Under the pieces are notes generated by a model, which saw nothing but the letters and a program-made list of their open reading frames with translations, ran no database searches and was not told where the DNA came from. The translations under genes and the position numbers were made by a program. Below, one piece after another: positions 319 through 24,059 of a stretch of 28,161 nucleotides of DNA; position 1 is the first letter of the stretch, and each line of letters starts with the position of its first letter. The DNA is from a virus: the IMG/VR virus record IMGVR_UViG_3300031767_000002, positions 1-28,161 of that record. The stretch is one strand, 5' to 3'.

Positions 319-597
319 CTAGATGACGCCCGCTCTGCGGAGGATGAATGCGTAGTGTTCTTTTGCCTCTTCGAGATTGTCGTATTCGTACACTTCGGCA
401 GTGCAATCGTAGCCTCGGCGCTCTATGAAATAGATGACGACCGAGCCGGTTTCAGTGCGGAACACACGGTACTGGATATCGTCCCCGTCGATATTGAACC
501 GCACCGAGCCTATCTCCGACCCGTTGAAGGTGGCGACCTCGTAGTTGTTGTCGCCGGTGAAACTTCGGTACCCGCGCCAGATAGAGATTGTTGCCAT
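319..597 (-). CDS. Small protein of the phage W-x-G family, unknown function
   Basis: 92 residues. The ATG at 597 is chosen over an upstream in-frame start because the promoter at 643-671 lies inside the longer reading frame and AAGGAC precedes this ATG. It is a paralogue of the genes at 773, 1164, 3526 and 4217. They share an N-terminal ISIWRG-like strand, a central VFRTETGSVVIY segment (strand, turn, Gly, hydrophobic strand) and a C-terminal YDNLEEA helix start. No signal peptide, membrane segment or catalytic motif is visible. It is transcribed divergently from 773 and ends at a strong terminator. A host-takeover or anti-defence role is possible from its position, but this is a guess. Confidence 0.75.
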   Translation of the reverse strand: MATISIWRGYRSFTGDNNYEVATFNGSEIGSVRFNIDGDDIQYRVFRTETGSVVIYFIERRGYDCTAEVYEYDNLEEAKEHYAFILRRAGVI

Positions 598-642
598 TTG
601 TGTGCCGTCCTTTCTTGACGTGTGTTTATCGTTTACGTCTCT

Positions 643-671
643 ACTATACCGCACACGCCGCGATTTGTCAA
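643..671 (-). promoter_or_regulatory. Sigma70-type promoter for gene 319-597
   Basis: On the minus strand: TTGACA (671-666), a 17-base spacer AATCGCGGCGTGTGCGG and TATAGT (648-643). CGAT begins 12 bases after the -10, as in three other promoters here. Confidence 0.85.
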
Positions 672-682
672 GCCCCAATTTC

Positions 683-707
683 GCGGAAAATCCGGCGGAT
701 TTTCCGC
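683..707. promoter_or_regulatory. Perfect palindrome between divergent promoters (operator candidate)
   Basis: The arms GCGGAAAATCC (683-693) and GGATTTTCCGC (697-707) are perfect inverted repeats with a 3-base centre. The palindrome ends one base before the -35 of the plus promoter and starts 11 bases after the -35 of the minus promoter. A dimeric regulator bound here could affect both. An AT-rich activating element is an alternative. Confidence 0.5.
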
Positions 708-736
708 TTGACAACCGGCGCGGGGTGTGGTAAAGT
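708..736 (+). promoter_or_regulatory. Sigma70-type promoter for gene 773-1108
   Basis: TTGACA at 708-713, 17-base spacer ACCGGCGCGGGGTGTGG, TAAAGT at 731-736. The spacer differs by one base from that of the promoter at 3867-3895. CGAT follows 12 bases after the -10. Confidence 0.85.
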
Positions 737-772: not shown

Positions 773-1108
773 ATGGCTACGATCAACATCTGGAAAGGAA
801 CCAAGCGCGTCGTACGCGGCAATACATATAAGACCGTCGCGTACGTTGAGTTTGACGGTGAGTGTTTGGGAGTCTGTTGGGAAGAGTACGACTCCCGCGG
901 CGTAGAGACGACGGTGTTTCGTTCTTCCGATGGGCGTATAATCGTCCACCAGGAGAGGTGGAGCAGATGGGAGGGCGAGGAAACTCGCGCAGATGTTTTC
1001 GTTTTCCCGTCTATTGAAGACGCAACGGACGCATTCCGGTGGGAGTTGGAGCAGGCGGGGATCATTCCCCGCCCGACGCTCACACTCGAAGAGGTTGACG
1101 GTCGGTAG
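773..1108 (+). CDS. Small protein of the phage W-x-G family, unknown function
   Basis: 111 residues. The ATG at 773 is preceded by GGGAGGT. The N-terminus MATINIWKG almost repeats MATISIWRG of the divergent gene 319-597. The middle has VFRSSDGRIIVHQERW and the C-terminal part has VFVFPSIEDA, matching the family pattern of strand, DG turn, strand, then an LE[ED]A helix. A 13-residue acidic tail is added after the shared part. It is the first gene of a three-gene plus-strand run (773, 1164, 1517) that ends at the terminator at 1865. Function unknown. Confidence 0.8.
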   Translation: MATINIWKGTKRVVRGNTYKTVAYVEFDGECLGVCWEEYDSRGVETTVFRSSDGRIIVHQERWSRWEGEETRADVFVFPSIEDATDAFRWELEQAGIIPRPTLTLEEVDGR

Positions 1109-2670: not shown

Positions 2671-3339
2671 ATGCCAAGTCTAGACATCGCAAACTTTTTG
2701 ACTGTCGCGCTCGATGTGCAGAATGAGGGATATGCCGGAGTTCACGTCTCCGGCGGCGTGGCTGCGGCGACCGACGGCGCGATGCTGGTCGTTGCTGATT
2801 GGGGTTCAGAGTTCCTCCGCGGCGAGGGGACGATATCGCCGCGCGCGGTGCTGGCGCTGGCAGCGCTGGCGGAGGCTACAAATCTCGGCGGTATTGACGT
2901 GGACGGCAACCGTGTGATCGTTGTCGCCCAAAGCACGCGGTATGAGGAGCGGGGAGGGGAAGTGACGGGGGATTTTCAGACTATTCCTCTCCCCGATTTT
3001 TACTGCCCGCACAATCCCGCCGTTGTGCATCTAGTCAGAAACCTGACAGACGCAGAGGAGAGTTGGGTTCCCCTCGCCGAAAATCCCGTTCTGAAGAACC
3101 TTCGCACCTTACGCGCAAATGATTGTGTCGTTCTGTCGGGTTTATACGGCGAAGGGTACGAACTGTTCCACCCGAAAACCGAAGGCGACACGCTGTACTA
3201 CTACAGCGTCGCTCGGCTGCGACGAGGTTTGAAGTTGTTCGGCGCGCGTGCGCGCCTGAGCGTGCGCAGGAGCGCCAGAGGTTGGTTGGTGTTTGAGGAC
3301 GGATATCAGAAGTTTGCGATCGCGCCGTTCGCCGACTAA
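2671..3339 (+). CDS. Two-domain protein resembling a DNA sliding clamp, copy 2
   Basis: 222 residues. The ATG at 2671 follows AGGAG, 9 bases after the stop of copy 1. It is a clear paralogue of copy 1 along its length: LDIANFLTVALDVQ, GVAAATDGAMLVV, GTISPRAVLALAALAEA, GIDVDGNRVIVVAQ, then LPDFYCP, and a C-terminal YSVARLRRGLKLFGARARLSVRR...FAIAPF. The inter-domain part differs most. It shares the promoter at 1914 and ends at the terminator at 3359. If the clamp reading is right, the two proteins may form a mixed ring or serve different partners. Neither protein has an obvious clamp-binding tail. Confidence 0.5.
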   Translation: MPSLDIANFLTVALDVQNEGYAGVHVSGGVAAATDGAMLVVADWGSEFLRGEGTISPRAVLALAALAEATNLGGIDVDGNRVIVVAQSTRYEERGGEVTGDFQTIPLPDFYCPHNPAVVHLVRNLTDAEESWVPLAENPVLKNLRTLRANDCVVLSGLYGEGYELFHPKTEGDTLYYYSVARLRRGLKLFGARARLSVRRSARGWLVFEDGYQKFAIAPFAD

Positions 3340-3400: not shown

Positions 3401-3444
3401 GTCACAACACATCATTCTCTTTTATTTATACAGCGTGTTGTGAC
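3401..3444 (-). repeat. 44-bp inverted-repeat element, copy 1
   Basis: GTCACAACAC at 3401-3410 and GTGTTGTGAC at 3435-3444 are perfect 10-bp inverted arms around a 24-base core. The core contains TATAAATAAAAGA on the minus strand. CAGCAG flanks the left arm. It lies between convergent genes, 10 bases after a terminator. Confidence 0.95.
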
Positions 3445-3525: not shown

Positions 3526-3822
3526 TTAGATGAGGCGCATATCTTTCAGTGCTTGTCGCAACTCGTCATTCTGCGCCGCTTCCTCAAGGTTGCTGAACCG
3601 GAAGATGTGCCCGTAGTGCGGTTCGCCGACGATGCCCGACCAAGTGGTGAGGTGCACGATAATTTCGCCCTCTGTCTGATAAACGTAGTAGGTCTTTCCG
3701 TCAATTACGTCCTCGAACCATCCGATTTCCTCAGCGATTATTTCGGTAACCGTGTACTTGCTGGTGTCGTCGCCTGGCAGAAACGTTCGCTCGCCTTCCC
3801 AGATTTTGTACATCTGCAGCAT
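3526..3822 (-). CDS. Small protein of the phage W-x-G family, unknown function
   Basis: 98 residues. The ATG at 3822 has AGGAGG eight bases upstream; a Met at position 4 is a less well placed alternative. Family marks are YKIWEGERTF at the N-terminus, YYVYQTEGEIIVHLTTWSG in the middle and FRFSNLEEAA near the end. The middle part is more acidic than in the other copies. It has its own promoter (3867-3895) and terminator, and is divergent from 3998. Function unknown. Confidence 0.78.
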   Translation of the reverse strand: MLQMYKIWEGERTFLPGDDTSKYTVTEIIAEEIGWFEDVIDGKTYYVYQTEGEIIVHLTTWSGIVGEPHYGHIFRFSNLEEAAQNDELRQALKDMRLI

Positions 3823-4578: not shown

Positions 4579-4608
4579 ACCCCGCCGGCGTCGGCGGGGT
4601 TTCTGTTT
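4579..4608 (+). terminator. Rho-independent terminator after gene 4217-4558
   Basis: ACCCCGCCG (4579-4587) pairs with CGGCGGGGT (4592-4600) around GCGT, followed by TTCTGTTT. It closes the accessory region and opens a 322-base gap before the next gene. Confidence 0.85.
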
Positions 4609-4618
4609 GTTCAGCAGC

Positions 4619-4662
4619 GTCACAACACTCGATCTTCTTTTATTTATACGCAGTGTTGTGAC
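4619..4662 (-). repeat. 44-bp inverted-repeat element, copy 2
   Basis: Perfect arms GTCACAACAC (4619-4628) and GTGTTGTGAC (4653-4662). The core has TATAAATAAAAGA on the minus strand. CAGCAG precedes the left arm. It lies in the 4559-4881 gap, 10 bases after the terminator. Confidence 0.95.
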
Positions 4663-4682
4663 ACCCGCCGCACCACCTGAAA

Positions 4683-4703
4683 GTAGTACTCCCCCGCGCC
4701 CGC
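4683..4703 (+). repeat. 21-bp repeat accompanying the elements, copy 1
   Basis: This 21-base stretch, beginning GTAGTACTCCCCC, recurs exactly and inverted at 10470-10490. It lies between element copies 2 and 3. The similarity continues patchily through CATCAGCAG to the neighbouring element arm. Confidence 0.9.
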
Positions 4704-4721
4704 TGTTATTCCATCAGCAGT

Positions 4722-4765
4722 GTCACAACACTCTATAGAAATAAAAGAGAAGCAGGTGTTGTGAC
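4722..4765 (+). repeat. 44-bp inverted-repeat element, copy 3
   Basis: Perfect arms at 4722-4731 and 4756-4765. The core has TATAGAAATAAAAGA on the plus strand, opposite to copy 2. Relative to its CATCAGCAG flank, this core is flipped compared with copies 1, 2, 4 and 7. Confidence 0.95.
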
Positions 4766-4814
4766 ACCCCGCGCACGCGCCGCGATCTGGCGTACGAAAA
4801 CGCGGCGCTTCTCT

Positions 4815-4847
4815 GGTACAATTAAAGTGAGGGGCGCACAGCGCCCC
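4815..4847 (+). promoter_or_regulatory. Possible extended -10 promoter and leader hairpin for the head module
   Basis: TGGTACAAT at 4814-4822 resembles an extended -10, but no good -35 is 17 bases upstream. A hairpin follows (GGGGCGC 4831-4837, GCGCCCC 4841-4847) in the leader of gene 4882. Apart from this, the terminator and elements 2 and 3, the gap 4559-4881 shows nothing recognisable. Confidence 0.35.
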
Positions 4848-4881: not shown

Positions 4882-5112
4882 GTGAACCTTCCCTTTTCGC
4901 AACCGCTGGACAAGGTGACCTTTGGCGCACTCGCCGCTGCGACTGTCATCATTCTCACCTGGGCGCTGCGTGAGTTCGCGGGGATCGATTTGCCCGCCGA
5001 GGTGCAATCCGCATTGGCGGTGATTATCGGGTATGTCGTCTCGTATCACATCCCACTGAGCGAGGTTGAGGCTGAGGCAATCGCGCGGAAGTACTATCGG
5101 AATTACAAATGA
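4882..5112 (+). CDS. Small two-helix membrane protein, holin-like
   Basis: 76 residues. The GTG at 4882 follows AGGAGGG. Two hydrophobic segments, about residues 13-31 (VTFGALAAATVIILTWAL) and 41-57 (VQSALAVIIGYVVSYHI), are joined by GIDLPAE. The pattern of TM, [VI]D[VL]PAEV and TM resembles small phage holins of the r1t type. Its place directly before the terminase genes, away from the endolysin at 19145, is unusual. The stop overlaps the next start as ATGA. A different membrane role is possible. Confidence 0.55.
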   Translation: MNLPFSQPLDKVTFGALAAATVIILTWALREFAGIDLPAEVQSALAVIIGYVVSYHIPLSEVEAEAIARKYYRNYK

Positions 5113-6495: not shown

Positions 6496-8395
6496 AACGA
6501 CTGCACAACTCGTACTGTCGCCGTTTGAGCGCTACGACATCAAAGCGCTCAACTTGGAGGATTTTCTGCCCTCTGCGTGGACGGACGTATTCGGCGACGG
6601 TGATGCGGTCGACGTGGAGACGGCGTATGAGCGCGTCGCGGTGGTGCGGACGGCGGTGACGTTGCGGGCGAACGCTCTCGCGTCGCTGCCGTGGGAGATT
6701 ACGACGCGGCGCGGTACGCTGGTCGCATTCGACGCAGAGCGACTGGCGGCGCTCATTCGCGGAATTGAGATCGATCTGTGTCTGTACGGCGCAGCGTATC
6801 TGCTGCGCGATCCGGCAGCGCCGCTTGGTCTCCGTCGTCTGCACCCGCGTACCATCACTCCGATCACCGATTCCAAACGCGGGCTGGTCGGGTTTGTCCG
6901 CCGCGCGAACAATACTGAAATCCGTTTAGAGCCGGGAACAGAACTACTGCACATCTGGGAACCGTCTGTAAGAAGCGAAGTCGAACCCGGCGTCGGACTG
7001 GTGACCACCGCACTCACGCAAGCCCGCGCTTTGCTCGCGGCGGAGAGGTACCAGATGGCGTACTTCGAGCGCGGGGCGGTGCGCCCGACGGTGTGGATGT
7101 TTGCGCAACGCCCGACCGATGCGGAACGTTCGCGCTTTGAGCAGTGGCTAAGGCAGTTGGTGAGCGGCATCCGCAATGCGTTCCGGCACCTCGCGCTGTC
7201 GAGCGAGATCAAAACCGTCACGCTGGGGGATACACTGTCCGACGCAGTGCAGCCGGAACTGTTGCAGCGTGCGGCGGAACTGATGCTCACCGCGTTTCAA
7301 GTGCCGATGTCGCTGGTGTTCTCCAGCGCGAGCAACTACGCGACCGCGCGACGCGATTATCAGACGTTCATTCTTCTAACAATCCTCGCCCGCGCGCGCG
7401 AGGTCGCGGCGATGCTCCAGCCGCACTTCGCGGCGTACAATCAGATGTTACGCTGCAACGAGGCGCGGATCGACGCCGTGCAGAATGAGGAGTTGGAGAA
7501 GGCGGAAGCGATCCAGCGCTTGACCGGACAGCCGGTGCTGACGCTGAACGAAGCCCGCGCGCGGCTTGACCTCCCGCAGTTTGTCGAGGACGCAGCGGAT
7601 CAAGAGTTGCTGCGTTTGCGCAACCGGCTGGCGATAGCGCGGGAGGCGGTGGCTGCCGGTCTCGACGTAAGAACGGCGTTGCGGCTGGCGGGCGTCAACG
7701 GCGCGGCAAGTGCGGAACCGGAAGAGATTGAAGCGAAGGCGTTGAAGAAAGAGGCGGAACCGGAACTGCTGCCGCACGAGGTGCAACTCTACCGCGACCT
7801 CAAGCGCGCGTTTCTGCAATTACGCCAAGTTATGCTTGACGGCGCAGACGAGATTACGGCGCAGATGTTCAGCGAGACGCTCTATCCCGCAATGCGCCGT
7901 AATATCGAGACGATTGCGCGTCTGTTCGCAGACGAGATGCGCGCAGCGATCGGCGTAACCGTCAACGTCGATGCGCTGCTGGCGGATTGGGCTGAGGAAG
8001 CGACGCGCCGCCAGGTGGAAGAGTTGCTCTATCCGTACACGCGCGACTACATCGCCCGCGCGGTTGCTGCTTGGCGACGGATGCCGGGCGCGGATCGCGC
8101 CGAACTCGTTGCAATGATCGAGCCGGTCGTTGGTGCGAAGCGCGCCGAGACCGTCGCCATCACCGCTGCGACCGAAGCCGCAGCCGCGGGCGTGCGGGCG
8201 TACCGCGACGGGATGCGCGCTGAGCATAATCTGGAGTACGTGATGATTTGGGAGACCGCGAATGATGAGCGCGTGTGTCCGATCTGCGGGGCGCTCCACG
8301 GCAAGCGTGAGGACGAGTGGGGCGGGCGGAGCGGGCCCCCGGCGCACCCGCGCTGTCGGTGCGGCGTCAGACTGGAGCGGATCGATGCGGGTTAG
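6488..8395 (+). CDS. Portal protein fused to a MuF-type C-terminal domain
   Basis: 635 residues from the ATG at 6488, which follows AGAGGTG; a TTG three bases earlier is less likely. The first 400 or so residues fit the HK97 portal family: RTAVTLRANALASLPWEI, then the HIWEPS and PGVGLVTTALTQARALLAAERYQMAYFERGAVRP stretches, then FQVPMSLVFSSASNYATARRDYQTFI. The C-terminal end carries the MuF zinc-like motif CPICGALHG (Cys597, Cys600) and HPRCRC (Cys623, Cys625). A charged linker around residues 395-420 joins the two. The portal makes the head's DNA entry ring; MuF proteins are minor head proteins. The start overlaps the terL stop by 8 bases. Confidence 0.9.
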   Translation: MSRTTAQLVLSPFERYDIKALNLEDFLPSAWTDVFGDGDAVDVETAYERVAVVRTAVTLRANALASLPWEITTRRGTLVAFDAERLAALIRGIEIDLCLYGAAYLLRDPAAPLGLRRLHPRTITPITDSKRGLVGFVRRANNTEIRLEPGTELLHIWEPSVRSEVEPGVGLVTTALTQARALLAAERYQMAYFERGAVRPTVWMFAQRPTDAERSRFEQWLRQLVSGIRNAFRHLALSSEIKTVTLGDTLSDAVQPELLQRAAELMLTAFQVPMSLVFSSASNYATARRDYQTFILLTILARAREVAAMLQPHFAAYNQMLRCNEARIDAVQNEELEKAEAIQRLTGQPVLTLNEARARLDLPQFVEDAADQELLRLRNRLAIAREAVAAGLDVRTALRLAGVNGAASAEPEEIEAKALKKEAEPELLPHEVQLYRDLKRAFLQLRQVMLDGADEITAQMFSETLYPAMRRNIETIARLFADEMRAAIGVTVNVDALLADWAEEATRRQVEELLYPYTRDYIARAVAAWRRMPGADRAELVAMIEPVVGAKRAETVAITAATEAAAAGVRAYRDGMRAEHNLEYVMIWETANDERVCPICGALHGKREDEWGGRSGPPAHPRCRCGVRLERIDAG

Positions 8396-10409: not shown

Positions 10410-10453
10410 GTCACAACACGCTATAGAAATAAAAGAAGATCGCGTGTTGTGAC
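10410..10453 (+). repeat. 44-bp inverted-repeat element, copy 4
   Basis: Perfect arms at 10410-10419 and 10444-10453; the core has TATAGAAATAAAAGA. The stem extends two bp inward on each side (GC/GC). It starts 12 bases after the capsid stop. The right flank GCTGCTGATG is the inverse of the CATCAGCAG flank at copy 3. Confidence 0.95.
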
Positions 10454-10469
10454 GCTGCTGATGACACCG

Positions 10470-10490
10470 GCGGGCGCGGGGGAGTACTAC
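10470..10490 (-). repeat. 21-bp repeat accompanying the elements, copy 2
   Basis: Exact inverted copy of 4683-4703, here between element copies 4 and 5. Exact conservation over 21 bases in untranslated DNA 5.8 kb apart suggests duplication or function. Confidence 0.9.
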
Positions 10491-10508
10491 GTTTGGGTGA
10501 GGCGGACT

Positions 10509-10552
10509 GTCACAACACTGCATATAGATAAAAGAAGATGCGGTGTTGTGAC
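10509..10552 (+). repeat. 44-bp inverted-repeat element, copy 5
   Basis: Perfect arms at 10509-10518 and 10543-10552. The core is the most divergent, with TATAGATAAAAGA. No CAGCAG flank is present. Confidence 0.95.
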
Positions 10553-10590: not shown

Positions 10591-10633
10591 GTCACAACAC
10601 GCTGTATAAATAAAAGAGATGCGGTGTTGTGAC
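10591..10633 (+). repeat. 43-bp inverted-repeat element, copy 6
   Basis: Perfect arms at 10591-10600 and 10624-10633; the core is one base shorter and contains TATAAATAAAAGA. It ends 24 bases before the start of gene 10658, with only a ribosome site between, so this copy lies where a promoter for that gene would be expected. Confidence 0.95.
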
Positions 10634-12116: not shown

Positions 12117-12632
12117 ATGTCGCACTCAGGCGTTATTGCCGGTCTGTACGCCGGGAACTACGCGGTCGAGATTTCGACCAACGGAACGACGTGGACTGCG
12201 GTTTCAAACGCAACCGTCAAAATAGACGACGTTGAACTTTCGCGCCCAAGCGGTGAGGCGTATGTCGGCGGTTCAAGCGATTATGCGACGGTGACCGTCG
12301 GTAAACGCGAACCGATTGAGATTACGCTGACGTTTTTGTACAACGAGGATACGAACTCTGCGGCGAATACGATCTTTGGTCAGTTCCAAAGCGCCTCGCC
12401 GCGCCTCGGCGTGCGCTGGTCGCCGCGCGGGTTAGTCGGCAGCGCACGCGCGTACGGAACGAGCAACGACGGCGGAACGTCGTTTGGGGTGGGGGTGATC
12501 ACCAACGTCACACTGAGCGCGCTTGACCCAAGCGACGCAGATCCGTATGTCGCGATGGTGACGGTGCGAACTCCGTCGCTGCGTCAGTACACGCTCGGAT
12601 CAAGCCCGACCAACCTCAACCCGGCGTCATAA
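12117..12632 (+). CDS. Major tail tube protein
   Basis: 171 residues. The ATG at 12117 follows AGGAGG and GGGG. It is almost all beta: GNYAVEISTNGTTWTAVSNATVKIDDVELSRPSGEAY, then ATVTVGKREPIEITLTFLYNE, FGVGVITNVTLSALDPSDADPYVAMVTVRTPSL. The pattern of paired long strands and the position just before the frameshifted chaperones are typical of siphophage tube proteins. It stacks as rings around the tape measure. Confidence 0.75.
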   Translation: MSHSGVIAGLYAGNYAVEISTNGTTWTAVSNATVKIDDVELSRPSGEAYVGGSSDYATVTVGKREPIEITLTFLYNEDTNSAANTIFGQFQSASPRLGVRWSPRGLVGSARAYGTSNDGGTSFGVGVITNVTLSALDPSDADPYVAMVTVRTPSLRQYTLGSSPTNLNPAS

Positions 12633-15565: not shown

Positions 15566-16774
15566 ATGCGAATACGGCAAATCGGAACGCTTGTTTTCAA
15601 CGCGAACACCAACATCGTTGTTGACGAAACCAACCAAGACGCGCCCGGCATCGGATTTCGCGTAAATAGTCTTTTCGACCCGCAACCGTTCGCGGTGGAG
15701 ATCGCGTTTCGGAGAGAGACGCGGCAGCAAACGCTCAACGCAGTGAACGCGCTTGCGCGCGAGTTGTACAGTTATGCACAACGGCGTCAGAATGAGCGCA
15801 TAGCGGTCGCGGGCGGCGCGCAGGTGATCGTTGAGGACGAGATCGGCGGAACGTCGCTGCGGTCGTATCTGCGCGACGCTGCGGTTACTCTGCTGAGCGT
15901 TGAGGCAACCTCAACCGGATTCCTTGCGCGGGTGCGGGTGACGGGGACGCTGATCAATCCGTTTGTAAACTATACGGCTACCGGGACATCTGTTTCTAAT
16001 TTTAGATTATACGAACGGCGTATAGTCACATTGACGGGAACAAGCGATGGGTATCTCTATAAAAATTATATAGATTTCACAGCATCGAACATTCCGGGTT
16101 TATACAACGCACTGCTGGCGATAGAAGAATTAGAGAGCGCCACGGGAACCAGCAGAATAGAGGTGTTTAGTCCAACTACAAACAACAACAATGTAGTTAT
16201 GCAACCCTTCAGCGCGGGATGGCAAACGTTGACGCGCGGGGTTTTGTCTTCGGGGGGAAGCGCGACGTTCACATACAACATCCCCGCAACACTCTCGCGG
16301 GATGTTTATCGTGTATTCATAGAGATTTTCTGTCAAAACACGCCGGTGAATGCGAGATATATCGTGTCGTGGCCCGGTCAGCCGCAGATTACGGAGACGA
16401 TTACGGGAGATCGCTCGTGGTACACGCCTGCATTGCTCGCACCAGACACATCAACGCTCCCCCTAACTCTCGAAATCCAGAACGTTCCGAGCGGGACGAT
16501 GATAATGCCGCTGGTGCTTATCCCGATGGACGGCGTTTATGTTTGGAACGTCGTCTCGTCGCCGACATTGAGTTGGTACCGCATTGTCGATCTCCAACTC
16601 GCCATAAACACTCCGTTCGCTTCAAACCCCCCCGGAATCATATACGGCGCGCCGGGATTTGTGTCGAGCCGCTACATCGCGGCGTTCAACGGTGTGATGT
16701 CCCCTAATACCGGATCTGCCTCGTCGTCGTTGTTCATTTATTCACACCGGATTGAACCCGCCTCGTTCGCGTGA
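15566..16774 (+). CDS. Distal tail (Dit-like) protein with a compositionally distinct C-terminal domain
   Basis: 402 residues. The ATG at 15566 follows GGGAGGGTGTGAG. Residues 1-130 look like a Dit-type tail-tip domain (VVDETNQDAPGIGFRVNSLFDPQPFAVEIAFRRETRQQTLNAVNALARELYSYAQ, then a TLLSVEATSTGFLARVRVTGTLINPF strand pair). From about residue 133 (base 15960) the DNA becomes clearly AT-richer and the protein is a Thr/Ser/Asn-rich beta domain, perhaps a carbohydrate-binding module as in evolved Dit proteins. Function from position and layout only. Confidence 0.55.
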   Translation: MRIRQIGTLVFNANTNIVVDETNQDAPGIGFRVNSLFDPQPFAVEIAFRRETRQQTLNAVNALARELYSYAQRRQNERIAVAGGAQVIVEDEIGGTSLRSYLRDAAVTLLSVEATSTGFLARVRVTGTLINPFVNYTATGTSVSNFRLYERRIVTLTGTSDGYLYKNYIDFTASNIPGLYNALLAIEELESATGTSRIEVFSPTTNNNNVVMQPFSAGWQTLTRGVLSSGGSATFTYNIPATLSRDVYRVFIEIFCQNTPVNARYIVSWPGQPQITETITGDRSWYTPALLAPDTSTLPLTLEIQNVPSGTMIMPLVLIPMDGVYVWNVVSSPTLSWYRIVDLQLAINTPFASNPPGIIYGAPGFVSSRYIAAFNGVMSPNTGSASSSLFIYSHRIEPASFA

Positions 16775-21155: not shown

Positions 21156-24059
21156 ATGTCCCTCTCATTTACAGATTACCTCGACTTACTGTACGGCGAC
21201 GATACCGCCGCATATACGACCGTCAGCGTCAAACTGGCTGATGGTCGTTTTGTGTGTCAGACGTTCAACCTCTCACAGCGCGCAGAGATCATCAAGCATA
21301 TCGAGAAACACCTCGTATACGACATCTACATCAAGCGCGCTTCACAATACGTTCGCCCGGATCGCGGCTCATCGGGAACCGCCGAAATCGCCTACTACCA
21401 GCGCGTCATCACCGCCGACATCGATATTCAATCCGAAGCCCACAAACCGCAGACGCTGCCGCGCTCAAAAGACGACGCACTGAAACTTCTGGCGGAGAGC
21501 GGGCTGCCGGAACCAACGCTGGTGGTGCACACCGGCAACGGCTTGATGCCGATGTGGGTGCTGCGCGAACCTCGTTGGGTCAATGACGTTGCGCCGGTGC
21601 AAGCAGGCGTCGAAGCGCAACTGCGCATCGCCGCCGCGCGGTACGGCTGGACGCTGGACAACACGAGCGACGCGGCGCGGTCGATCCGCGTCGTTGGATC
21701 GTACAACTGGAAGCAGCGACCGCAGAAGAAGCCCGTCACCGTCATCCGCAACAGCGACCGCTACTACGACCTCGCCGATTTCGCCGCGTTCGCCCGCCGT
21801 CCGCTCCTTGCGCCGAAGCGCGTCGGCGGCGCGGCAACGCGCGAGACAATCGAGACGCTGCTGCGGTATATACCCGGAGACGGTCTGGAGTACAATATGT
21901 GGCTGGCGGCGGTCTGGGCGATCCAGTCCGCGCTGCCGGAAGACGTTGCAACCGAGGTGCTGGACAACTGGACATACGACTGGGAGAAGCACCGGAAGCC
22001 CGATCACGTCGAGAGCGGGATCGGGGTGTTGATCAACCTCGCCCGACAGTACGGTTTTGAGGGTACAGTGCCGGGTCTGCGCGGCGGGTACGTCGTATCG
22101 CCGGAACTGCCCGACGCGATGAAGATCAATCAGCGTTATCTGGATATCGAGATTGACCCGGACGACGATTATCCGAATATCGTCGTCATCAAGTCGCCCA
22201 AGGGCACCGGAAAGACGCAGTGGCTGGCGGAAGCCGCGAAGTGCTACCCGCGCGTGCTGTCGGTGGGGCATCGCGTCTCGCTGGTGCGCCAGAGCGCTGC
22301 GCGGCTGAACCTCACGCCGTATTACGAGGACGGGCGCTGGATTACGAACGCGCCGCGCGTCGCGACGACCATTCACAGTCTCGACAAAATCGAAACAGAC
22401 GCGCCCTACGATCTCGTGATCATCGATGAGATCGAGCAGGTGCTGAAAGCAATCGTCAACGACCGCAACCTGAAAAGCCGGAAAGTCAGTGCAGTCGGGG
22501 CGCTGATGGAGCACCTGCGCAAGGCGCGGCTCATCATTTTCGCCGACGCCGATGTTGGCGAAGCGACGCTGACGTTCATTCAGTCTGCATTTCCTAACCC
22601 GAAGATAGCCTACGTCGAAAATGAGTATGTCCACCGTATGATAGATCATCTCGTACTGCTGCCGTCGCCGGAAGACGTACTCCAGAAGTCGCTGGAGTGG
22701 TACGAAACCAATGCGTGGAAAATCGCGCTTGCGTGCAACACCCGCGCCGACGCCGACCGTGCGGAATTGTTCTACCGCCAGTTTCTGCCGGACGCGCGAA
22801 TACTGAAGATTACGTCTGAAACAAGCGAGAATAACAACGAGACGCTTGAGCGCATCAACGATATTCTGAGAGACGTTGATGTGTGCATCTACTCGCCGTC
22901 GGTCGGCACCGGCGTCTCAATTGACATAGAGGGATTTGCGTTGTTCGGCATCGCACGCAACGGCGTCGGCGTCGGCGACGTTGACGACTTCCGCCAGCAG
23001 TTGGGGCGCATCCGCAACCCGCTTGAGCGCGAGATCAACGTGTACGTTGAGACCAAGCGAATGAACGAACCGACCTCGCCCGAAGCGTACCGCGATCTGG
23101 CGAAGTTGCGCGAGTTGGAAGCCGACTTCCGGGTTTCGCGCGCGAACGGCGCGGCGGAACCGGCAACGGAGTGGGATCGCGTCTACCTCGATCTGTACTG
23201 CGTTGTCAAAGCGAAAACAGCGGCGCAGAAGAATGCGTTTTTTGATAACTTTGTCGGCGCGTATGCGGCGGAAGGCGTTGAGGTTTGGGACGACCGCGAC
23301 AAGCCGAATCTACCGACCGACCGCCGCCGCGAACTCGCAAAGTCGCTGCGTGAGCAGCGCGAGGAGAAGGAACGCGAGCGCGCCGAACGGATCGCCAACG
23401 CGCCGACGCCGGATGATGCGAAAACGGAAGAGCAAAAGCGCGACGCAGAGCGGAAGGTTGAACTGGAAGAGCGGTACGGTATCGAGGTTGACGCCGATCT
23501 GGTGTTAGATGACGAGCGCGGCGCATACGGCGCGGCGCAGCGCTTCGCTGCGGTGGAGGACGCAGAGGTTGCGAAGGCGCTGGACGAGATCGAGGCGACG
23601 CGGCGGTTCAGTGCGGATCGCAACCGATTCGCGCTGTTTGCGATTTGGTTCAATATGCTGCTTGCGGCGTTGCGACTGCGGATTGAGGAAGGTGCAGAAA
23701 TTGCAATTACTGAAGAGTTCGTCGATCTCGTTGAACGCAACCGACTGCTGATCCACGCCGCGCTGGGGATCAAGGTGCGCGAAGACTTTCGCCGGAAGCC
23801 GATGTCGTTTATCAGCGCACTGTTCCAGAGGATCGGCGTCGGCATCGAAGGGAAACAGCAGCGGGTAGACGGCGGGAAGCGCGTGCGCGTCTACCGGCTG
23901 GTCAACGTCGAACGGGCGCGCCTGCGCACCACCGGCATCCGCAAGCGGTACGCAGAACGCGCCGCGCCGGTGTTTGAGTTTTTGGGGACGCCTGTCACAA
24001 CACATCATATAAATAAAAGAAAGACTGCTGTTGTGACATCTGCTGCTGCTGTATACTAG
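21156..24059 (+). CDS. AEP primase fused to an origin-binding-type SF2 helicase
   Basis: 967 residues. The ATG at 21156 follows AAGGAGGAG. Primase domain: catalytic DxD in TADIDIQ (Asp88, Asp90), VVHTGNG at 123-129, and DAARSIRVVGSYNWK at 172-186. A PriCT-like segment follows (LLRYIPGDGLEYNMWLAAVWAI, 235-256). Helicase: Walker A SPKGTGKT at 347-354, VLSVGHRVSL at 367-376, ATTIHSLDK at 403-411, DEIE at 424-427 and QQLGRIR at 614-620. These match the herpes UL9-like origin-binding family. Residues 725-785 form a charged coiled coil. The last 20 or so codons include 44-bp element copy 7. It would open the duplex and prime synthesis for the polymerase at 24479. Confidence 0.85.
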   Translation: MSLSFTDYLDLLYGDDTAAYTTVSVKLADGRFVCQTFNLSQRAEIIKHIEKHLVYDIYIKRASQYVRPDRGSSGTAEIAYYQRVITADIDIQSEAHKPQTLPRSKDDALKLLAESGLPEPTLVVHTGNGLMPMWVLREPRWVNDVAPVQAGVEAQLRIAAARYGWTLDNTSDAARSIRVVGSYNWKQRPQKKPVTVIRNSDRYYDLADFAAFARRPLLAPKRVGGAATRETIETLLRYIPGDGLEYNMWLAAVWAIQSALPEDVATEVLDNWTYDWEKHRKPDHVESGIGVLINLARQYGFEGTVPGLRGGYVVSPELPDAMKINQRYLDIEIDPDDDYPNIVVIKSPKGTGKTQWLAEAAKCYPRVLSVGHRVSLVRQSAARLNLTPYYEDGRWITNAPRVATTIHSLDKIETDAPYDLVIIDEIEQVLKAIVNDRNLKSRKVSAVGALMEHLRKARLIIFADADVGEATLTFIQSAFPNPKIAYVENEYVHRMIDHLVLLPSPEDVLQKSLEWYETNAWKIALACNTRADADRAELFYRQFLPDARILKITSETSENNNETLERINDILRDVDVCIYSPSVGTGVSIDIEGFALFGIARNGVGVGDVDDFRQQLGRIRNPLEREINVYVETKRMNEPTSPEAYRDLAKLRELEADFRVSRANGAAEPATEWDRVYLDLYCVVKAKTAAQKNAFFDNFVGAYAAEGVEVWDDRDKPNLPTDRRRELAKSLREQREEKERERAERIANAPTPDDAKTEEQKRDAERKVELEERYGIEVDADLVLDDERGAYGAAQRFAAVEDAEVAKALDEIEATRRFSADRNRFALFAIWFNMLLAALRLRIEEGAEIAITEEFVDLVERNRLLIHAALGIKVREDFRRKPMSFISALFQRIGVGIEGKQQRVDGGKRVRVYRLVNVERARLRTTGIRKRYAERAAPVFEFLGTPVTTHHINKRKTAVVTSAAAVY
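23994..24037 (+). repeat. 44-bp inverted-repeat element, copy 7, inside the primase-helicase gene
   Basis: Arms GTCACAACAC (23994-24003) and CTGTTGTGAC (24028-24037), the only copy with an arm mismatch. The core has TATAAATAAAAGA. CTGCTGCTG follows on the right. It is translated as part of the C-terminus of the primase-helicase. Confidence 0.92.

Follow-up and report, generated by a model that had tools for sequence, protein, structure and literature searches.

A 44-bp interspersed palindromic element in a phage clade with a polar core that lies in both orientations at three sites

Introduction

Positions 4619–4765 of a 28,161-bp virus contig (the window, i.e., the whole stretch of DNA analysed here) span copies 2 and 3 of a short palindromic element, whose cores face in opposite directions. 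This locus raises the question of whether such a core can turn round between its own arms, by what route, and what its direction means for the virus. The window carries terminase, portal, capsid, tail, primase-helicase and DNA polymerase A genes. The relatives with which it is compared are uncultured, partial and mutually related metagenome contigs, so that element counts from them are not counts of independent events; gene calls come from a simple script based on codon usage.

Element copies in the window

The element has the form GTCACAACAC-N24-GTGTTGTGAC, in which inverted arms enclose a polar core with the motif TA[GT]AAATAAAAGARRA. A pattern search of both strands finds seven copies, and the strand of each is set by its A-rich core. 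The seven copies are not due to chance because the pattern read backwards has no match in the window; a candidate eighth copy at 16332–16373 was ruled out by three arm mismatches and an absent core. Copy 1 (3401–3444, minus strand), at site A, lies between convergent genes and is flanked by two terminator-like hairpins. Copy 2 (4619–4662, minus), at site B, stands directly behind a terminator-like hairpin at 4579–4600, and copy 3 (4722–4765, plus), at site C, has a holin-like gene on its 3′ side (4882–5112, plus; phrog_9284). Behind the major capsid gene lies an array that begins with copy 4 (10410–10453) and continues with copy 5 (10509–10552) and copy 6 (10591–10633, with a 23-nt core), all on the plus strand. 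Copy 7 (23994–24037, plus) has one arm mismatch and is translated in frame as VTTHHINKRKTAVVT, the C-terminal tail of the 967-aa primase-helicase.

The core of copy 3 is indeed reversed relative to its own CAGCAG flank, as the earlier note held: the CATCAGCAG flank, within CATCAGCAGT at 4711–4721 (plus), abuts the core on its 5′ side. Taken in the direction of the core, CAGCAG/CTGCTG adjoins the 3′ arm of copies 1, 2, 4 and 7, whereas it adjoins the 5′ arm of copy 3. Across 304 distinct copies in relatives, this motif occurs on the 3′ side in 90 and on the 5′ side in 30, while these words read in the wrong sense turn up 2 and 0 times. The 21-bp repeat (4683–4703 and 10470–10490) that had been read as making the flanks of copies 3 and 4 homologous is real and lies inside a 36-nt inverted match (86%), but its place needs correction: the match joins the spacer between copies 2 and 3 (4668–4703, plus) to that between copies 4 and 5 (10470–10505, minus). 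Because the repeats sit between pairs of elements, it is a whole element–spacer–element module that the two arrays share in inverted order. The flip is therefore not provable within this genome alone, whereas comparison with relatives does prove it.

In the interval from copy 3 to the holin gene, a promoter-like stretch (4788–4822, plus; ctggcgtacgaaaa ... TACAAT/TATAAT) was recognized by eye in the alignment. Kept in most relatives (ctggNgtacNaaaa, then TATAAT/TACAAT), it is, to judge from its sequence, probably a late promoter without a normal −35 box. Elsewhere in the same part of the window, positions 1924–2661 and 2671–3339 encode tandem paralogous proteins, one of which weakly matches DNA polymerase processivity factors (E 0.008); the pair possibly represents two adjacent sliding clamps. 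Small paralogous proteins with the sequence MATI[S/N]IW... are encoded at 319–714 (minus), 773–1108 (plus) and 3526–3822 (minus), and near these genes strong sigma-70-like promoters (TTGACA-N17-TATACT or TATAGT) occur in both orientations with a GC-rich inner sequence. Relatives have a 225-aa HTAQHTAHTDT-repeat protein, and a CAG-repeat stretch at 1–138, which could encode a His/Gln-rich segment, may be the end of a homologue of it.

A clade-wide family of elements

The family comprises 361 copies collected from 64 related viral contigs (0.9 Mb), with about 10–11 element sites per genome in the phage clade. The consensus of the core is NNNNTA[GT]AAATAAAAGARRANNNN, and its length is 24 nt in 341 of the 361 copies. 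Arms are 10–11 bp long and near-invariant, with an essentially invariant left arm and a slightly varying right arm. Each arm is itself, by eye, a TGT-N4-ACA dyad, which is a common form of protein-binding site; we infer from this form that the arms may bind a protein. Element copies fold as DNA hairpins (z −3.4 to −8.3), and arm positions 1–10 have no compensatory changes. Arms with a gap of 20–26 nt occur in 83 stretches of viral_contigs. A search of 84,980 bacterial and archaeal genomes gave only three matches, none convincing; these Actinobacterial sequences have the arms in common with the element, their cores are unrelated, and they look like chance. The element is absent from distant phages with 25–40% identical terminase or capsid proteins, and GenBank holds no close phage relative by DNA at the copy 3 locus and none for the portal protein. 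The numbers of the source metagenomes may point to hot-spring phototrophic mats.

The map of the element is broadly constant across the clade: two to five copies lie behind the capsid gene, two to three inside an FtsK-like ATPase gene, one at the end of the primase-helicase gene and one behind a neighbouring early gene, with further copies at sites A, B and C. Near the capsid arrays there are also core-less hairpins of the form GTCACAACAC-TTC-TGTTGTGAC (L042:3481–3502, G027 contig 8128–8149 and similar) and solitary arms, which are apparent deletion products of the element. One site exists both with and without the element (G006 contig 21948 versus G017 contig 12147–12163). Its filled form is flanked by TAGGAGGT repeats, the mark either of a target duplication of 8 bp or of two ribosome-binding sites between which a deletion took place; a clear insertion with target duplication was not found.

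Copies within genes

Copies within coding sequences are read almost without exception in one frame, which gives VTTPxxNKREAxVVT (72 versus 2 others, one of the two being a false element). In the forward direction this frame is open in 278 of 358 copies, compared with 10 and 7 for the other two; some reverse frames are open within the element, but are used by no gene. The ATPase is FtsK/SpoIIIE-like (PHROG E 1e-17), and its linkers in relatives hold two to three in-frame copies. A protein-pattern search turned up 42 distinct coding copies, and in every one the left arm is perfect, down to its three silent positions; what is constrained is therefore the DNA and not the peptide. The reading frame is a likely reason why coding copies never flip.

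Core orientation among relatives

Core orientation is polymorphic at sites A, B and C and fixed nearly everywhere else. In element-selected contigs, orientation relative to the late genes is split 12/6 at site A and 31/31 at sites B and C, while counts are 168+/0− behind the capsid gene and 16/0 behind the primase-helicase. Other sites give 87/7; all seven exceptions come from a distant subfamily with a diverged core, and two more copies are undecided. Since this first contig set was picked by the element itself, the count was repeated on loci picked by proteins. All 45 capsid-selected loci with enough sequence carry an array, with 149 of 149 copies in one orientation, and the 31 terminase-selected loci have 18 plus, 12 minus and one absent copy at site C. 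The relatives thus do not show the single fixed orientation that the earlier note had set against its own proposal of a flip. On a tree of the holin–terminase region, which recombination may distort, site C orientation changes at least seven times among the 31 phages (shuffled mean 9.8), and sister pairs at 99% SH-aLRT differ in it. At site B, the core opposes gene direction in 12 of 13 homologues. Copies between tandem genes are aligned with transcription in 202 cases versus 36.

Inversion, exchange and rival explanations

Comparison of all copy pairs for homology of both 40-bp flanks (threshold 18; 99.9th percentile of 9.5 in a null of reversed flanks) yields 1140 pairs with the same and 100 pairs with opposite core orientation, and chaining of these 1140 + 100 pairs gives no parity conflict. 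Copy 1 of the window and its counterpart in G013, for example, have flanks alike at 39/45 and 98/100 positions around reversed cores that are alike at 22/24; for G022 and L081 at site C, the values are 154/157 and 24/25 for the flanks and 20/24 for the reversed cores. Flanks are homologous right up to the arms, so the breakpoints are at the arms. Recombination at the arms as the cause of the flip, which the earlier note had suggested, therefore stands to the extent that both orientations occur at an orthologous site between flanks homologous up to the arms. A simple arm-to-arm route within the same copy is less secure: none of 74 opposite-orientation pairs has identical cores (best 22/24), versus 86 of 124 same-orientation pairs (69%) at the same sites. 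Of the marks of hairpin-loop inversion, a loop lying both ways at one site between homologous flanks is found, and an exact reverse-complement loop is not found among the 74 opposite pairs. Cores at least 22/24 alike make up 26% of opposite pairs at one site compared with 1.9% of random cross-site cores; opposite cores at one site are thus far more alike than random, which points to in-place inversion. Conversely, because no opposite pair is identical, exchange with another copy must account for at least some of the pattern.

These observations can be combined in an account in which the core of a lineage-specific hairpin element would occasionally invert between its own arms, by hairpin or template-switch loop inversion, and cores would also be swapped between copies via the arms, which would reshuffle alleles and orientations without any programmed switch. 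Where polarity matters, in genes with one open frame and in co-transcribed arrays, reversed copies are absent and were presumably selected out; selection presumably also explains why the untranslated capsid arrays keep a single polarity. Sites A, B and C, which lie next to terminators and ahead of the probable late promoter, retain either orientation. Taken as a whole, this account stands evenly poised between being right and being wrong. A quite possible alternative is that exchange alone is at work, with recombination or gene conversion at the arms importing an oppositely oriented copy within the overall mosaic reshuffling of these phages. A flipped core is never the same as the local allele, and import might account for many or even all of the cases. 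Swaps of cores without a flip are also seen between copies with identical (G001/G016, both 40-bp flanks, core 20/24) or near-identical flanks (L044/L083, core 17/24), G003, G002 and G010 have B and C fused, the minus core at site C of G001 and G016 resembles the neighbouring B core, and an inter-element spacer is common to distant arrays. Exchange alone sits less easily with the best flipped pairs, which keep 22/24 core bases with 98/100 flank identity, and with the excess of closely similar opposite cores over random cross-site ones.

A programmed switch, in which a phage or host recombinase flips the copy 3 core and so controls the holin/terminase promoter downstream, is very unlikely. Both orientations do occur about 55 bp upstream of the conserved promoter-like stretch and the holin–terminase genes, and orientation changes often on the tree. 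Yet tyrosine (PF00589) and serine (PF00239) recombinases and the Y1 transposase (PF01797) had no match in 21 incomplete contigs in which control families were matched; this lack of an integrase, resolvase or Y1 transposase makes a dedicated switch unlikely, with the proviso that the contigs are incomplete. Orientation changes are, moreover, accompanied by allele changes, and copies in capsid arrays never flip. Two sites on the same DNA molecule that are separated by 24 bp also lie too close together for ordinary synapsis. Repeat-confused assembly could in principle make chimeric inverted cores, and metagenome contigs are the whole data set, but such an artefact is scarcely credible: one minus core at site C is common to G007, G021, G031 and L075, which come from different metagenomes, and flips occur at sites A, B and C and in none of the 149 capsid-array copies, where repeats are densest.

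What the element may do

At site A, which has a terminator-like hairpin on either side, the arms have stayed nearly wholly intact, which argues for a role at the DNA level without need of transcription. An RNA-hairpin function is disfavoured by this and by the lack of compensatory changes in the arms. The core as a promoter was also considered, since it contains TATAAATA, which we take to resemble T4 late promoters; copies in both orientations between two convergent terminators at site A weaken this idea. For T7-like RNA polymerase (PF00940) there is no match, but the family was matched in no control either.

A tentative possibility is that the element is a polar protein-binding site of the stoperator type, acting as a repressor site or roadblock that is read one way relative to transcription. 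Copies are dispersed and aligned with transcription in operons, arms are kept as sequence and contain dyads, they remain intact between the site A terminators, and coding copies are under the same constraint at wobble positions. A polar, transcription-linked role would also fit the orientation rule of the capsid arrays. Less in keeping with this reading, early-region proteins in these incomplete contigs have no helix-turn-helix match in Pfam or PHROGs, and stoperators are 13–14 bp long without dyad symmetry (PMC6550527). It is more doubtful that the element is selfish palindromic DNA of the Rickettsia palindromic element type, without function for the phage. In-frame copies in the FtsK-like ATPase and the primase-helicase tail, decayed forms near the arrays and the one possible empty site with its TAGGAGGT repeats would suit a selfish element, but positions are conserved clade-wide, 45 of 45 capsid loci carry an array, a clear insertion has not been found and near-invariant arms are unlike decaying selfish DNA.

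Comparison with known systems

Several known systems share parts of this architecture. In herpes oriS, inverted 10–11-bp boxes surround an AT-rich spacer, a layout similar to that of the element with its 10–11-bp inverted arms, so that a replication origin may be considered as a reading. The primase-helicase (21156–24059) matches the herpes origin-binding helicase family PF02399, with a match that covers the helicase part only. PeSL cassettes of T4-type phages are small regulatory hairpin cassettes with early promoters that are thought to aid module shuffling; they are hairpin-bearing and small like the element, whereas the element core sits between terminators at site A. Phage switches of the Gin/Cin type also hold a segment between inverted repeats in two orientations, but the segment of the element is a gene-free 24 bp, no recombinase was found, and flips are accompanied by allele changes. 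REP/BIME and MITE sequences are likewise short palindromes between genes, repeated in arrays of direct and inverted order; for the element, in contrast, no Y1 transposase, no clear target duplication and, in the bacterial and archaeal genomes searched, no convincing match was found.

Minute inversions in chloroplast spacers (trnH-psbA), with 25–27-bp loops between 18-bp repeats (PMC2903610), and template-switch loop inversions in rRNA genes (PMC8794818) have a loop of about 25 bp that lies both ways between unchanged flanks and reverses frequently among close relatives, as in the phages. The phage element differs because it is dispersed and multi-copy, its flipped loops are altered and most of its copies never flip. 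Rickettsia palindromic elements, as outlined in passages of PMC10969869 that cite Ogata 2000 and 2002, are short palindromes that lie between genes and in frame in unrelated genes. The same in-frame occurrence is found here in two unrelated genes, those of the FtsK-like ATPase and the primase-helicase, but Rickettsia palindromic elements are about 150 bp long and bacterial, while the phage element is 44 bp long with clade-conserved positions, a polar core and fixed spacing. Stoperators of Cluster A mycobacteriophages are bound by a monomeric repressor, and reversal of the site abolishes repression (PMC6550527, PMC9283540). Like the element, they occur as many dispersed, mostly intergenic sites per genome that are oriented with transcription and for which polarity matters; in contrast, the element has two inverted arms around a core rather than a 13–14-bp dyad-free site, and some copies lie inside genes. 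None of the compared families fits on all tested features, and the element is best described as an interspersed palindromic element with proposed loop inversion.

Significance

It seems improbable that the element is a new polar phage DNA signal for an unknown protein, with about 11 uses per genome, in frame where needed, and that core inversion at sites A–C switches late-gene expression. This phage family provides a natural experiment in which the same 44-bp signal occurs at about 11 sites, with a direction that is fixed at most of them but variable at three. Why polarity matters, and how short segments between short inverted repeats invert, thereby become testable. The element also adds a phage case of in-frame palindromic DNA within protein genes, in which the left arm is conserved even at silent positions.
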